DNA of 53,860 bases from positions 1 through 53,860 of the forward strand of contig WTGI01000051.1 of assembly GCA_011523635.1 (NCBI GenBank). The letters are read 5' to 3'. Below the pieces are notes generated by a model. That model did no database searches and was not told where the DNA came from. It was given only the letters and a program-made list of their open reading frames with translations. Each line of letters opens with the position of its first letter. The first letter of the stretch is position 1. The position numbers and the translations under genes were made by a program. This DNA comes from Acidimicrobiia bacterium (GTDB lineage Bacteria > Actinomycetota > Acidimicrobiia > Spongiisociales > Spongiisociaceae). Below are positions 11,772 through 18,571 of the stretch, piece after piece.

Positions 11772-12692
11772 ATGACAGCGCTAGCTGATCGACGGCAGGT
11801 CCGGATCCCCGGCGGGGAGTTCCTGATGGGCTCCGACCGCCACTACCCCGAGGAACGTCCGGTCCGCAAGGTGCGGGTGGACCCGTTCCGGATCGATGCC
11901 TACCCGGTCACCAACCGCCGGTTCATGGAATTCGTCACCGACACCGGCTACGTGACCTTCGCCGAGCGACCCCCCGACCCGAGTCTCTACCCGGGGGCTC
12001 GACCGCCGGACCTGGTGCCGGGTTCGCTGGTGTTCGGAATGACGGACGGGCCCGTGGACCTGGGGGACTTCCGCAACTGGTGGTCCTGGACGCCGGGCGC
12101 CGACTGGCGCCGGCCGCTGGGGTCCGGTTCGTGCTTGGACGGCCTGGAGGATCATCCCGTGGTCCACGTTGCCTACCCCGACGCGGTGGCCTTCGCCCGC
12201 TGGGCCGGCATGCGCCTTCCTACGGAGACCCAGTGGGAGTACGCCGCCCGGGGCGGTCTGGAGGGCGCCGAGTTCGCCTGGGGAGACCAGGACTGCCAGG
12301 AAACAATGCCTCGGGCCAACACATGGCAGGGAGCGTTCCCCTACGAGAACACGGAACTGGACGGCTGGACCAGGACCAGCCCGGCCGGTTTCTACGCCCC
12401 CAACGGCTACGGCCTGTACGACATGATCGGCAACGTCTGGGAGTGGACCTCCACCCGGTACCGGGAGGCACCACCGATGGCCGGTTCCCGGTGCTGCGGC
12501 CCGCCAAGGAGCGAGCAACTTGCCCCGATCCGGCAACCTGGCCCCTTCCCCTCCCGCACCATCAAGGGCGGTTCGCACCTATGCACGATCCAGTACTGCT
12601 TCCGCTACCGGCCCGCCGCCCGCCAAGCGCAGACGCTCGACACCTCGGCGTCCCACATCGGATTCCGCTGCGTATCACCAGACCGCCCCTGA
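11772..12692 (+). CDS. Formylglycine-generating enzyme (SUMF1/EgtB/PvdO family)
   Basis: 306 residues. The enzyme converts a cysteine in a CxPxR sulfatase motif to C-alpha-formylglycine. Family features run from the N-terminal IPGGEFLMGS through PVTNRRFMEF, RLPTETQWEYAARGG and GNVWEWTS to KGGSHLC. Cys271 and Cys276 form the C-x4-C copper and substrate site that distinguishes true formylglycine-generating enzymes, followed by RYRPAARQ and GFRC. All key residues are present, so activity is likely. It starts 30 bases after the amidohydrolase on the same strand, with only a weak Shine-Dalgarno. No sulfatase lies in the window, so its client is unknown. Confidence 0.92.
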   Translation: MTALADRRQVRIPGGEFLMGSDRHYPEERPVRKVRVDPFRIDAYPVTNRRFMEFVTDTGYVTFAERPPDPSLYPGARPPDLVPGSLVFGMTDGPVDLGDFRNWWSWTPGADWRRPLGSGSCLDGLEDHPVVHVAYPDAVAFARWAGMRLPTETQWEYAARGGLEGAEFAWGDQDCQETMPRANTWQGAFPYENTELDGWTRTSPAGFYAPNGYGLYDMIGNVWEWTSTRYREAPPMAGSRCCGPPRSEQLAPIRQPGPFPSRTIKGGSHLCTIQYCFRYRPAARQAQTLDTSASHIGFRCVSPDRP

Positions 12693-12705
12693 CCCCCGCG
12701 GGGTC
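12691..12705 (+). terminator. GC hairpin overlapping the stop codon of the FGE gene
   Basis: GACCCC (12691-12696), loop CGC, GGGGTC (12700-12705) forms a perfect six-base-pair stem that starts within the TGA of the upstream gene. No T-tract follows, so intrinsic termination is uncertain. Confidence 0.3.
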
Positions 12706-12740
12706 CATGGGAGGCCACCCCATTCGCGCCGCGCCGCGGC

Positions 12741-12883
12741 GAACCTCAGGTTCAGGGCGTCATGGGTGGTGCCCTGTGCCTCAAGTTCGTGGACCCCACC
12801 ATTCTCGATGCACAGGGCGTCACCGGTGGTGCGGTGTTCCTGAGGTTCAGGGCGTCACATATGACGCCCTCTGCCTCAAGAAC
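12741..12883. repeat. Pair of related imperfect palindromes (REP-like)
   Basis: Element A (12741-12788) has outer arms GAACCTCAGG and CCTCAAGTTC and inner arms CAGGGC and GCCCTG around a 12-base loop. Element B (12836-12883) has outer arms GTTCCTGAGG and CCTCAAGAAC and inner arms AGGGCGTCA and TGACGCCCT around the loop CATA. The inner arms of B pair perfectly over nine bases. The outer arms of B pair at nine of ten positions, and the tenth becomes a G-U wobble in RNA made from the minus strand. A partial third copy (CAGGGCGTCA then GGTGGTGC) lies at 12812-12832. The arrangement resembles REP/BIME elements or tandem RNA hairpins in the trailer of the minus-strand operon. Confidence 0.7.
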
Positions 12884-12896
12884 GCTCCGAAGCCCC

Positions 12897-12931
12897 CGAA
12901 CTCGCGAAAAAGGGACTCGAACTCGCGAAAA
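12897..12931. repeat. Direct repeat of CGAACTCGCGAAAA at 21-base spacing
   Basis: The 14-mer occurs exactly at 12897-12910 and 12918-12931. Each copy contains the palindrome TCGCGA. The 21-base period equals two helical turns, which would place two protein-binding sites on the same DNA face. A partial look-alike, GAACGCGAAAAAAA, occurs at 13153-13166. Function is unknown. Confidence 0.6.
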
Positions 12932-12949
12932 TCCGGTGCTCCGCACCGG
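12926..12949 (-). terminator. Hairpin followed by ATTTT on the minus strand
   Basis: Read on the minus strand, CCGGTGC, loop GGA and GCACCGG (12949-12933) form a perfect seven-base-pair stem followed by ATTTT. It lies about 265 bases downstream of the minus-strand flavoprotein gene, so it would be a secondary terminator for that operon. Confidence 0.4.
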
Positions 12950-13159
12950 GCCCCTCCCCCGCCACCACCCATCCTGTTGGAGCGTGGTCGGCCATGCCCG
13001 GCTGGATGCCGGGGAATCGGCGGTCGCTCCATAAGGCTCGTATGTTCCCTCGGGCCGGCCGTTCCGATCGGTCTCACCTCATCGGCCGGTGTAGGTGCTT
13101 GGCGATAGGCAACGTATATCGGGGGTGTGACAAGTCCGACCCTTGTCGGCGAGAACGCG

Positions 13160-13179
13160 AAAAAAACGGTTGCCGGTTT
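13160..13179 (-). terminator. Candidate intrinsic terminator of the flavoprotein operon
   Basis: On the minus strand, AAACCGG and CCGTTT (13179-13164) can pair with one bulged base around the loop CAA and merge into a run of seven T residues (13166-13160). It begins 35 bases after the stop codon at 13214. The stem is short, so strength is uncertain. Confidence 0.4.
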
Positions 13180-13213
13180 GCGAAGGGACGATCGCCGGGA
13201 CCGGCGCCCTGGC

Positions 13214-15211
13214 TCAGCCGAGGGCGGGGGGAGTGGCGAGGGTGGAGCGCAGAGTGCCGGCACGTGCGGCCAGGTCGATGCGCTCGGCTACGTCGGCGGC
13301 TTCCTGGCCGGCGGCGTAAAGGTCTCGCGGCCGCACCGCATCGCCGATGGTGTAGATCTCGGCCCGTAACCCGGACCGCCTCAACTCGTCCGGGAGATCC
13401 GAGCCGGGGCGCCGGCCGCCGATCACTACCGATCCCACGTCCAACCGGCTTTCCTTGCCCCGGGTCTGTATCACCACGCCATCGCCGGTGATCAACTCCG
13501 TGGTGGCTTCCCGATGGATGGTGACCCCCTTGTCCGCCTCCAGTTCCAACTCGGCCAGCAGACCGGTGAAGGCGCCGTCCGCGGCAAGGGACGCGCCGGC
13601 TTCGACGATGTGGATCCGTACGCCGGAGCGGCGGAGGTGCTGCGCCACCCGGCAGGCTACGAAGTCACCGCCGATCACGGCCACGTCCGACTCCCACTCG
13701 TCCGGCGGCCGTTCCAGCCCGGAGAAAACGTCGAAGATGGGGACGGTGGGTTCCTGGGTGGCGGCCCACAGGTAGCCTCCCCGCGCTCCGGTCGCCACCA
13801 CCGCCGCATCGGGGTCGGCCTCGGAGATCTCGGGGACCCCGACCCGGCGGCCGGTCTCGATCCTCACCCCGAGCTCATCGAGCTCCCGCGCCAGCCAGTC
13901 GACCAGCGCCCCGTACTCGGGCAGGGCTCGGCGCAGGTAATACAACTGGCCGCCGAGCCGCTCGGTCGCCTCGCAAAGCAGGACCTCGTGCCCGCGGAGG
14001 CCGAGGAACCGGGCGGCGTGCATGCCCGCCACCCCGCCGCCGACGACCAATGCGCGCACTCGCTCCGGTGACGGGCGATAGCTGTCCCGGGAGAGCTCGA
14101 AGGCGCTGGCGGGGTTGGCGGCGCAACCGGCGGGAATACGGGCCACCGTCAGGTTGGCGCAGGTGTTGCAACCTATGCAGGGCAGTATCCGGTCGGCACG
14201 GCCCTCGGTCAGCCTGCGCACGTAGTCGGGATCGGCGTGGAAGGCGCGAGCCAGGGTGACGTACTCGAACCCCTCCCGTTCCATCACCCGGTCGGCGAAC
14301 ACGGGGTCGTTCATGCGCTGCGCCACGCTCACCGGGACCCGGTCGCCCACCGCCCGGCGGATGGCCGCGGCCTCCTCGACGAAGCCGCCCTTGCGCGCCT
14401 CAGGCCCCTGGAAGATCATCGACATCGACTCGTAGGTGCCTCCGGCCACGTCGATCAGGTCGATCCCCGCATCGGCGAGCATGACCGCGAAGCGGGCCGA
14501 CTCGTCCGCCTCCAGACCACCCTCCACATACTCGGCCGCCGATATCCGGTAGCCGATCGGGCAATCGGGCCCCACCACCTGCCGGACCGCGGCGAGAACC
14601 TCCAGGGGGAAGCGGGCCCGGTTGGCCAGGGACCCTCCGTAGCCGTCGGTACGACGGTTCGACTGCGGCGACAGGAACTGGCCGAGCAGGTAACCGTGCG
14701 CGCCATGCAGGTGGATCATGTCGACACCCGCCGCCAGGCATCGTTCGGCGGCCCTGGCGAAGTCTCCGATCACCCGGCGGATGTCGGCCGGCGTCATCTC
14801 GCGGGGAACCGTCCCCGGATCCATCATGGCGGACGGGATCGCAGACGGGGCGATGGGATGGCGGTGGTGGGCCGCAACGGATGCCTGGCGGCCCCCGTGG
14901 TGGAGTTCCATGGCCAGCTTGGCGCCGTGCGCGTGGATCTCTGTGGCCATCCGGGTGAGGGCCGGGATGACATGGTCCCCGTGGCAACCCACCTGGTACG
15001 GGTTCCCCCGACCCTCCGGCGATACGTAGGTCGACTCGAGCTGGATAAGCGCCGCCCCGCCCATGGCACGCCGCCGGGCGTAGGCGATGTAGCGCTCGTT
15101 CAGCGATCCGTCGAGGTTGGCCAGCGACTTCTCCATGGGACCGACGATGATCCGGTTGCGCATGTACATCCGGTTGATGTATCCGGGACGCAGCAGGTTC
15201 TCGAAGCTCAT
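13214..15211 (-). CDS. FMN/FAD/Fe-S oxidoreductase of the NADH:flavin oxidoreductase/2,4-dienoyl-CoA reductase type
   Basis: 665 residues. The N-terminal Old Yellow Enzyme barrel (about 1-340) shows IIVGPMEKS, ELHHGGRQA, MIHLHGAHGYLLGQFLSP and the signature YGGSLANRARF. An iron-sulfur segment has Cys345, Cys348, Cys351 and Cys363 (CIGCNTC then GCAANP). A C-terminal FAD/NAD(P) module begins with VVGGGVAGMHAARFL. Relatives reduce activated C=C bonds or demethylate amines. The second Cys spacing is two residues rather than the three usual in 2,4-dienoyl-CoA reductase. GGGAGGT lies five bases before the ATG at 15211. It is the last gene of a four-gene minus-strand operon, 22 bases after the Tm-1-like gene. 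Confidence 0.92.
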   Translation of the reverse strand: MSFENLLRPGYINRMYMRNRIIVGPMEKSLANLDGSLNERYIAYARRRAMGGAALIQLESTYVSPEGRGNPYQVGCHGDHVIPALTRMATEIHAHGAKLAMELHHGGRQASVAAHHRHPIAPSAIPSAMMDPGTVPREMTPADIRRVIGDFARAAERCLAAGVDMIHLHGAHGYLLGQFLSPQSNRRTDGYGGSLANRARFPLEVLAAVRQVVGPDCPIGYRISAAEYVEGGLEADESARFAVMLADAGIDLIDVAGGTYESMSMIFQGPEARKGGFVEEAAAIRRAVGDRVPVSVAQRMNDPVFADRVMEREGFEYVTLARAFHADPDYVRRLTEGRADRILPCIGCNTCANLTVARIPAGCAANPASAFELSRDSYRPSPERVRALVVGGGVAGMHAARFLGLRGHEVLLCEATERLGGQLYYLRRALPEYGALVDWLARELDELGVRIETGRRVGVPEISEADPDAAVVATGARGGYLWAATQEPTVPIFDVFSGLERPPDEWESDVAVIGGDFVACRVAQHLRRSGVRIHIVEAGASLAADGAFTGLLAELELEADKGVTIHREATTELITGDGVVIQTRGKESRLDVGSVVIGGRRPGSDLPDELRRSGLRAEIYTIGDAVRPRDLYAAGQEAADVAERIDLAARAGTLRSTLATPPALG

Positions 15212-18163: not shown

Positions 18164-18571
18164 ACTGCGCGGCCCTTCGTCACACGGCTAGGGGTTCCGG
18201 GGATGCGGCGCAATCCTAGTGCCCCGAGTCCATGGTTCTCCGTGCTCGTGCCCACGGGGTGCCCTTTCCGGTGGGACGTACTTGAGTCTCGATGTCTCGC
18301 CATCCGGTCGGGGGTTGACGGTGTCACAGTCCCGGCGTATGTTAATGAATAACCGTAACCACCAGCAGTCTGCGTGCGACGTCGAGCGGACTGACGGAGG
18401 GATCAAATCGTCTGAGGCGGCCCCATTCCGGGGTAGGGCGGGACGCGCCTCGGACCCAAGGTGGTGGCGGTGGGGGTGGGCCCAGCGGGCGACGGCGTTT
18501 CGCCGCGGTTTTCGCATTCTTCCGGATTCCGATTGCTAGGGTTCGTTGCCCGCTCAGATCGGATTAGCAGG
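18164..18571. other. 408-base divergent intergenic region upstream of ptsH
   Basis: The only clear signal is the plus-strand promoter-like pair at 18315-18343. Its use would give ptsH a leader of about 220 bases. A small frame starting at ATG 18345 runs to a stop near 18539 but has no recognisable protein feature and is probably not a gene. No obvious promoter was seen for the divergent SDR gene. Confidence 0.5.
18315..18343 (+). promoter_or_regulatory. Putative sigma-70-like promoter for ptsH
   Basis: TTGACG (18315-18320) and TATGTT (18338-18343) are separated by exactly 17 bases. Transcription would start near 18350, about 220 bases before the HPr start codon. The leader is long enough to hold a regulatory RNA element, but no known riboswitch pattern was recognised. 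Confidence 0.5.

Follow-up and report, generated by a model that had tools for sequence, protein, structure and literature searches.

A tandem palindromic repeat adjoining a multicopy, probably transposon-borne structured-RNA candidate in Acidimicrobiia

The window, by which we mean the whole 53,860-nucleotide stretch of DNA analysed here, contains a gap flanked by convergent genes that holds two hairpins, A and B, and beside them a larger structure that we refer to as the C element (Table 1). The C element comprises a promoter-like region, a predicted structured RNA and a terminator-like tail, all on the minus strand, while a second, divergent member of the same RNA family is found on the plus strand. 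The promoter match of this second member is better than that of the copy at 12919-13163.

Table 1. Features of the window, with the evidence on which each assignment is based.
Feature	Position	Strand	Basis or remark
FGE-sulfatase-type gene	ends 12692		convergent neighbour of the array
Hairpin A, palindromic unit	12744-12785 (earlier limits 12741-12788)	.	nhmmer family match, 44.1 bits; fold
Third palindromic unit	12804-12845	.	nhmmer, 32.0 bits; fold; pairs with A in the 143-nt fold
Hairpin B, palindromic unit adjoining the RNA element tail	12839-12880 (hairpin 12836-12883)	.	nhmmer; fold
Tail duplicate TTTTCGCGAGTTCG	12897-12910 (other copy 12918-12931)	-	direct repeat
Whole C element, from promoter-like region through predicted RNA to terminator-like tail	12919-13163	-	245-column profile match to L046:1536-1780
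Predicted RNA, 192 nt, three-way junction	12919-13110	-	alignment and pair counts; R1 model match, 214 bits (window copy among the model's source sequences)
Terminator-like hairpin CCGGTGC-GGA-GCACCGG, then ATTTTCGCG	12924-12949	-	92.4% of cells paired; stricter scan silent
G-rich tract GGGTGGTGGCGGGGGAGGGGCCC	12948-12970	-	alignments A1, A3 and A4: many invariant G, variable single bases between
P0 closing helix, 3' strand GGTGGTGGC	12961-12969	-	within the G-rich tract
Hairpin P2, GGAGCG..CGCTCC, inner CCCGGC..GCCGGG	12979-13030	-	pair counts, helices 3-5
Junction motif GAGGGAACA, conserved	13043-13051	-	alignment A1
Hairpin P1	13055-13089	-	6/6 pairs with double changes
Self-complementary apical loop CCGATCGG, candidate loop-loop dimer site	13064-13071	-	43/44 self-complementary; two double changes
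P0 closing helix, 5' strand GCCAAGCACC	13094-13103	-	97.0% of cells paired
Promoter-like region	13111-13139	-	subfamily I consensus TTGAA-N17-TAYGTT with TGTCACA in spacer; window copy TCGGAC-N17-TACGTT
NADH:flavin oxidoreductase-type gene	ends 13214		convergent neighbour on the element side
TAGTGCCCCGAGTC, a degenerate terminal inverted repeat on the 5' side of the second RNA-family member	18217-18230	+	sequence
Promoter-like TTGACG-N17-TATGTT of the second member, TGTCACA in spacer	18315-18343	+	read from sequence
Second, divergent RNA-family member, subfamily III	18353-18518	+	34 bits with R1; 90.9 bits with R2 (R2 built with it); upstream of HPr gene

Hairpins A and B were found where the first-pass annotation had placed them, and they are real and non-random: relative to shuffled sequences, the folding z of the RNA was -3.2 on the plus strand and -5.2 on the minus strand for A, and -7.5 and -7.6, respectively, for B. 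The claim that the single mismatch in the outer arms of B becomes a wobble in minus-strand RNA also held, giving an outer helix of 10 unbroken pairs. A third unit, between the two hairpins described earlier, had been overlooked. This unit shares 7 bp with B and is partly complementary to A, and the 143-nt stretch is therefore able to fold as a single long hairpin. Judged by sequence similarity, all three (A, B and the intervening unit) belong to a lineage-specific, near-palindromic tandem repeat of 42 bp, whose consensus is approximately CCTNAGGNNCAGGGCGTCA-n4-TGACGCCCTGNGCCTCAAG.

The first-pass annotation had named the joint absence of further copies and of conservation in close relatives as evidence against its reading, and both were found. 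The region 12741-12883 gave 42 similarity matches in the source genome (3.15 Mb, 91 contigs), and nhmmer located 73 unit sites in the stretches of that genome that were fetched, with partial matches extended to 42 bp and one N-bearing site dropped from the pair counts. Unit starts are most often spaced by 35 bp (24 times) or 60 bp (22 times), and several arrays sit at contig ends or contain runs of N. The repeat is present in 9 of 21 genomes searched, all belonging to one genus (9/10 of the genus); none was found in G009, the tenth genome of the genus, nor in 11 genomes outside it. G013, a sister-genus genome that lay outside this search, has at least one array (L084). The description of the hairpins as repetitive intergenic palindromes is borne out by this copy number and by the recurrence in close relatives. 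Taken by themselves, the hairpins would represent a new family within a known kind of repeat.

The proposal that the outer arms covary, with pairing preserved while the sequence changes, stands only in part. The arms of A and B do differ in this way (GAAC..GTTC versus GTTC..GAAC), but compensation does not extend across the family: among the 73 sites, pairing combinations are seen at 10 (GAA..TTC at 7, GTT..AAC at 3) versus non-pairing combinations at 23 (GTT..TTC at 14, GAA..AAC at 9), and the remaining 40 have other letters on at least one side. Since outer-arm covariation fails across the 73 sites, we read the units as DNA palindromes first. In units adjoining an element, the strand antisense to the element has 126 G-T against 93 A-C combinations, a weak signal drawn from units that are not independent of each other. 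The earlier suggestion that A and B form a structured RNA trailer thus gains no support from covariation and little from strand-specific wobble, and the candidate for a structured RNA is instead the neighbouring element.

Arrays and C elements are closely associated. Of 21 array clusters in the source genome, 16 are found no more than 60 bp from the 3' end of a C element match, four of these abutting partial matches; none lies on the 5' side, and five are elsewhere, two of them at contig ends. Conversely, an array accompanies 16 of the 37 element matches in this genome and is missing from the other 21. The position of unit B behind the tail is kept in the four orthologous loci that were compared, while the distal units differ, and on visual inspection 19 of 22 listed copies from relatives have a unit behind the tail.

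The C element has 37 DNA matches in its own genome. Subfamily I members share a conserved TTGAA-N17-TANNTT and a terminator helix, yet a strict consensus scan of 12600-13300 reported neither a promoter nor a terminator at the window copy, whose -35 is weak (TCGGAC). In 44 subfamily I members (L061 excluded), the TA of the -10 is conserved as T in 100% and A in 98%, and the TGTCACA motif lies 22 bases from the RNA start in 42 and 24 bases in 2; as TGTCACA was picked as the best match with up to two changes allowed, its conservation arises partly by construction. From 5' to 3', the predicted RNA consists of P0 (GCCAAGCACC/GGTGGTGGC), P1, the junction motif GAGGGAACA, P2, the G-rich tract, the terminator-like hairpin and the TTTTCGCG tail. 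In the tract GGTGGNGGNGGGGGNGGG (12948-12970, minus strand), G residues that are mostly invariant are separated by variable single bases, as would be expected of a two-layer G-quadruplex, and bases of the tract also form P0.

Support for this fold came mainly from alignment A1, which comprises 45 of 50 reference sequences (L093, L100, L073, L099 and L074 excluded). Here, 95.0% of pair cells are standard, and double changes occur in 11 of 37 pairs versus 2.3 in shuffled alignments, none of 500 shuffles reaching 11; sliding the partners lowers pairing to 28-44%. The two outermost P0 pairs vary between CG and UG (33 and 12 sequences) and between GC and GU (34 and 10). Since these variants pair only on the predicted RNA strand of the element (minus in the window), one strand is favoured. 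One inner P0 pair is non-standard in 10 of 45 sequences, and the predicted RNA is not more stable than shuffled sequence (z -0.79 for the window copy, +1.75 for a divergent copy).

Outside A1, the covariation signal is weaker. In genus g34, P0 and P1 pair in 89% of cells with no double changes, and automatic consensus folding picks partly different pairs. Alignment A3 holds 28 of 30 sequences (L064 and L255 excluded), and A4 holds 41 (L271, L272, L283 and L289 were unparsed by the anchors; L224, L235, L251, L255 and three G011 loci were excluded). Pairs with double changes are no more numerous in A4 than in shuffled alignments (4 versus 3.1; 174/500), nor are further pair types (394/500), although 18 cells have double changes versus 6.4 in shuffles (0/500). 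Pairing in A4 is lowered because the rows of subfamily II are out of register in P1.

The apical loop of P1 is CCGATCGG in 39 of the 45 A1 sequences. Its octamer is self-complementary in 43 of the 44 sequences that have letters at this position, double changes giving TCGATCGA and CCAATTGG, and the next best octamer window reaches 36%. Among 41 members of other subfamilies, the loop pair that varies is AU in 19, GU in 15 and GC in 7, and A-C was never observed; the hypergeometric chance of zero A-C is 0.008 over the full set of 41 and 0.065 when only the 31 rows from g34 are counted, values that are uncorrected for relatedness.

Searches against Rfam 15 returned no match at the gathering threshold in the whole window and none at E<=0.5 in eight loci. 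Within 12600-13300, there were six matches by E-value. All of them fall in the hairpin array, with scores well short of the gathering thresholds, the best being mir-BART3 (29.3 versus 70 bits), with Xoo8 at 17.7 versus 90. We therefore rejected a known riboswitch, ribozyme or small RNA. A leader or attenuator of the downstream gene was likewise rejected: a simple gene caller was applied to the 28 loci of the source genome that match the profile strongly, and the neighbouring gene on the 3' side was convergent in 17, on the same strand in 6 and not called in 5. The second member in the window does precede a gene on the same strand.

To gauge the size of the family we used two models, R1 and R2, the latter built from other subfamilies; their match lists overlap. 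R1 matched 42 times in the source genome, 43 in G009, 20 in G221, 11 in G158, 7 in G013 and 5 in G011. R2 gave at least 51 matches in the source genome, 25 in G009, 48 in G221, 17 in G011 and 136 in G013, counts that may include false matches among the weakest and may register a copy at contig ends twice, the G013 assembly being in 270 contigs with 8% contamination. The tail pattern TTTTCGCGWKNT occurs at 71 sites in the source genome versus 0 for a backward control. Of 20 further stretches inspected by eye, the first ten of them chosen as R1 matches, 13 hold more divergent members, two are cut by contig ends and five have none.

Among 296 genomes of the class, R1 matched 16: the source genome, eight others of its genus, one from another genus of the same family and six from one genus in another family of the order. 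R2, run with stricter filters over 396 genomes of the phylum, an even sample without any other known carrier among those listed, matched the source genome only among the matches listed. A conserved 23-base pattern from the element was found in 81 stretches of named genomes; of the 80 listed, 64 are titled as Acidimicrobiia MAGs (e.g. VXMM01, VXRE01 and WTGW01), 15 are titled 'bacterium' (JAPPGU01) and one is titled Acidobacteria (JAPOVI01). The last of these (L150, JAPOVI010000128.1) holds the exact element core and may be an Acidimicrobiia contig that was misbinned. Sponge association is presumed for some of the MAG sets.

Signs of mobility are clearest in G013, where members lie within elements of 332-349 bp that have inverted ends, CTAGTGTCC.../...GGACACTAG. 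Among 20 copies fetched, four were measured end to end, seven had a false inner left end picked by the pattern and nine had no pair, some being cut by contig ends. In G013, the family thus has the terminal inverted repeats of a miniature transposon (MITE) and, at this length and with at least 136 R2 matches, some possibly double-counted, its short, dispersed and multicopy character. CTAG is found at both ends of the G013 elements and may belong to the repeat itself. The sequences CTCAGCACCCTC and GAGGGTGCTGAG, or near variants, border inverted-repeat elements on one or both sides at six G013 loci (L298, L299, L301, L307, L310 and L323), and are either the outer part of the repeat or another repeat that served as a landing site. 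In 392,043 bases of G013, we found ten inverted-end pairs, five of 334-339 bp and five that are longer and imperfect. Four of the five shorter pairs carry the G-rich tract on either strand, and the fifth overlaps an R2 match. No autonomous element was found in these bases, and no transposase family (Pfam) was detected in the 20 frames scanned of the 33 of at least 150 codons within the longer pairs. Single-end matches numbered 54 in real G013 DNA versus 73-89 in shuffled sequence, so single ends mean little. In the source genome, degenerate single ends lie near some members only, and no inverted repeat was recognised at the window copy (12919-13163).

Many copies nonetheless hold their places between related genomes. 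For 16 of 30 loci in the source genome, loci from relatives match both flanks (46 in total, some representing the same place twice), and the element is present in each, a result that is biased because the loci were mostly fetched for holding the element. With an unbiased 12.5-kb query spanning two copies, both proved collinear in 4 of 9 relatives, and for the second copy the surrounding alignment is continuous in 8 of 9. A counterpart of the first copy is missing from G004, G002 and G009, the latter two also lacking the preceding gene, and in G003 and G006 its position coincides with contig breaks. At the locus where the element is absent in G004, a clean duplication was not seen; a clean empty insertion site was rejected there, as the intergenic DNA is unrelated.

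As an explanation of the whole, we think it reasonably probable that a palindromic repeat has grown behind a multicopy RNA gene whose family spread as the cargo of a MITE. In this model, the RNA gene at 12919-13163 would use its sigma-70-like promoter to produce a three-way-junction RNA of ~190 nt, self-complementary in its apical loop and G-rich towards its 3' side, that would end at the hairpin resembling an intrinsic terminator. The gene family would have spread within a small transposon without a transposase, whose terminal inverted repeats are close to CTAGTGTCCYGAGTC. Many copies in this genus have no recognisable inverted repeats and are found again at matching positions in related species. 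Directly behind RNA gene copies, the 42-bp palindrome would multiply in tandem in steps of 35 and 60 bp, forming DNA hairpins at the gene tails and growing by slippage or unequal recombination, and it would probably help to limit read-through between the RNA gene and its convergent neighbour. The sequences themselves establish the repeat family, its adjacency to the element, the conservation of the promoter-like region, structure and tail, the inverted repeats in one relative, the numbers of matches and the synteny; from these patterns, we infer transcription, RNA dimerisation, transposition, array growth and damping of read-through.

A more ambitious form of this proposal is possible, and we put it forward only tentatively. 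The transposon-borne RNA gene, at dozens to more than 100 copies per genome in this group of Acidimicrobiia, may have been selected as RNAs that pair through their apical loops (GACGTC, GGCGTC, GGCGCC, CGATCG and CAATTG), forming a genome-wide network of homo- and heterodimers with an exposed G-rich tract.

We consider it rather unlikely that the element acts only as DNA, that is, as a MITE whose palindromes serve transposition or are homogenised and which makes no functional RNA, its promoter- and terminator-like parts being hitchhikers. The terminal inverted repeats and the copy number, up to at least 136 model matches, would suit such an element, as would an RNA folding energy no better than that of shuffled sequence, and a MITE can carry sigma-70 promoters, as described for one case in PMC5896051. 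Against this, one strand is favoured by the G-U variants at two pairs of P0; conservation of the promoter-like region, the junction motif and the tail extends to copies in which no inverted repeats are recognisable, and to two families of the order; and orthologous copies persist across the genus.

It is unlikely that A and B belong to a transcript, either as a read-through trailer of the RNA gene or as the 3' UTR of the convergent mRNA, in which they would protect or process the 3' end. The constant place of unit B near the tail among the orthologues compared, the variability of the distal units, the restriction of adjacent arrays to the 3' side and the excess of wobble over A-C mismatch on the strand antisense to the element (126 versus 93) all fit this role. 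However, the outer arms lack family-wide compensation, the scan of 12600-13300 reported no terminator-like site and 21 of 37 element matches have no array.

A little more doubtful still is the idea that the units are sites for a DNA-binding protein, for instance a nucleoid or recombination protein, which the motif pattern of a 42-bp dyad with CCTNAGG borders and a GGCGTCA-n4-TGACGCC middle might suggest. Units such as B have a near-perfect dyad and the phasing is regular, but many units depart from the dyad.

The weakest alternative, that the units are classical REP/BIME sequences mobilised by a RAYT transposase, is highly improbable, and a RAYT-driven REP was rejected. Like REP/BIME as described in PMC3733652 and PMC2817692, the units are short, clustered, intergenic palindromes in many copies, the window copies lying between two genes. 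According to PMC3733652, a REP is defined by a terminal tag, GTAG or CGTC, that is not part of the stem, and CGTC REPs are said to have no dedicated transposase. Our units have no unpaired GTAG or CGTC tag, CGTC being located within the stem, and they differ further from the REP/BIME described in these two sources in their longer stem and their 35/60-bp phasing. RAYT (Y1_Tnp, PF01797) was detected in 0 of 10 genomes of the genus, with a control that was positive in 5 of 14 known genomes. The REP/BIME-like label given by the first-pass annotation does not, therefore, apply in the strict sense, and the units represent a regularly phased class of palindromic repeat for which the RAYT model of REPs does not account.

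Within the Actinomycetota, mycobacterial MIRU are tandem intergenic repeats of similar period. The likeness is one of description only, and the unit reported here differs in being a palindrome tied to an RNA element. A search of the open-licence literature found no paper on this RNA or repeat family. The closest precedent is offered by MITEs that bear small RNAs. As described in PMC5896051, QMITE1 and QMITE2 of Coxiella burnetii are MITEs of 300-400 bp with sigma-70 promoters and ~50 copies that are sources of the small RNAs CbsR3, CbsR13 and CbsR16 and are conserved between strains; the Coxiella elements are also covered in the review PMC10969869. The C element resembles them as a short, MITE-like element with a promoter-like region, dozens of copies and a possible role as an RNA source, and differs, as far as descriptions can be compared, in its phylum, in an RNA architecture common to two families and in the palindromic array at its tail (PMC5896051). 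BrickBuilt of Porphyromonas gingivalis, described as an intergenic MITE with a minisatellite and promoter activity, likewise joins a mobile-type element with a tandem repeat, but its 23-bp repeat lies within the element, whereas the 42-bp palindromes lie behind the RNA tail (PMC4596501). The bprJ repeat of Bordetella is described as having mobile-element features and as being overlapped by a small RNA; on description alone, this differs from the C element in being a repeat of ~90 bp from another phylum (PMC3110155).

If the RNA is transcribed and selected, it would in our judgement constitute an unusually large paralogous family of structured RNAs for one bacterial genome, and a case of a small transposon turned RNA gene family. 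Because some copies are orthologous, some have an array and others none, and some are bounded by inverted repeats, the step from mobile element to RNA gene should be traceable.

Two minor features of the window copy were also observed. The ten bases ATGGGTGGTG occur twice, once at 12963-12972 (minus), where they belong to the element's RNA strand, and once at 12762-12771 (plus), within hairpin A; being on opposite strands, they could allow a read-through transcript to pair with the RNA, possibly by chance. The tail, CGAACTCGCGAAAA on the plus strand, is doubled at 12897-12910 and 12918-12931, and similar doubled tails are found at C50:6335-6367 and C53:21011-21041.
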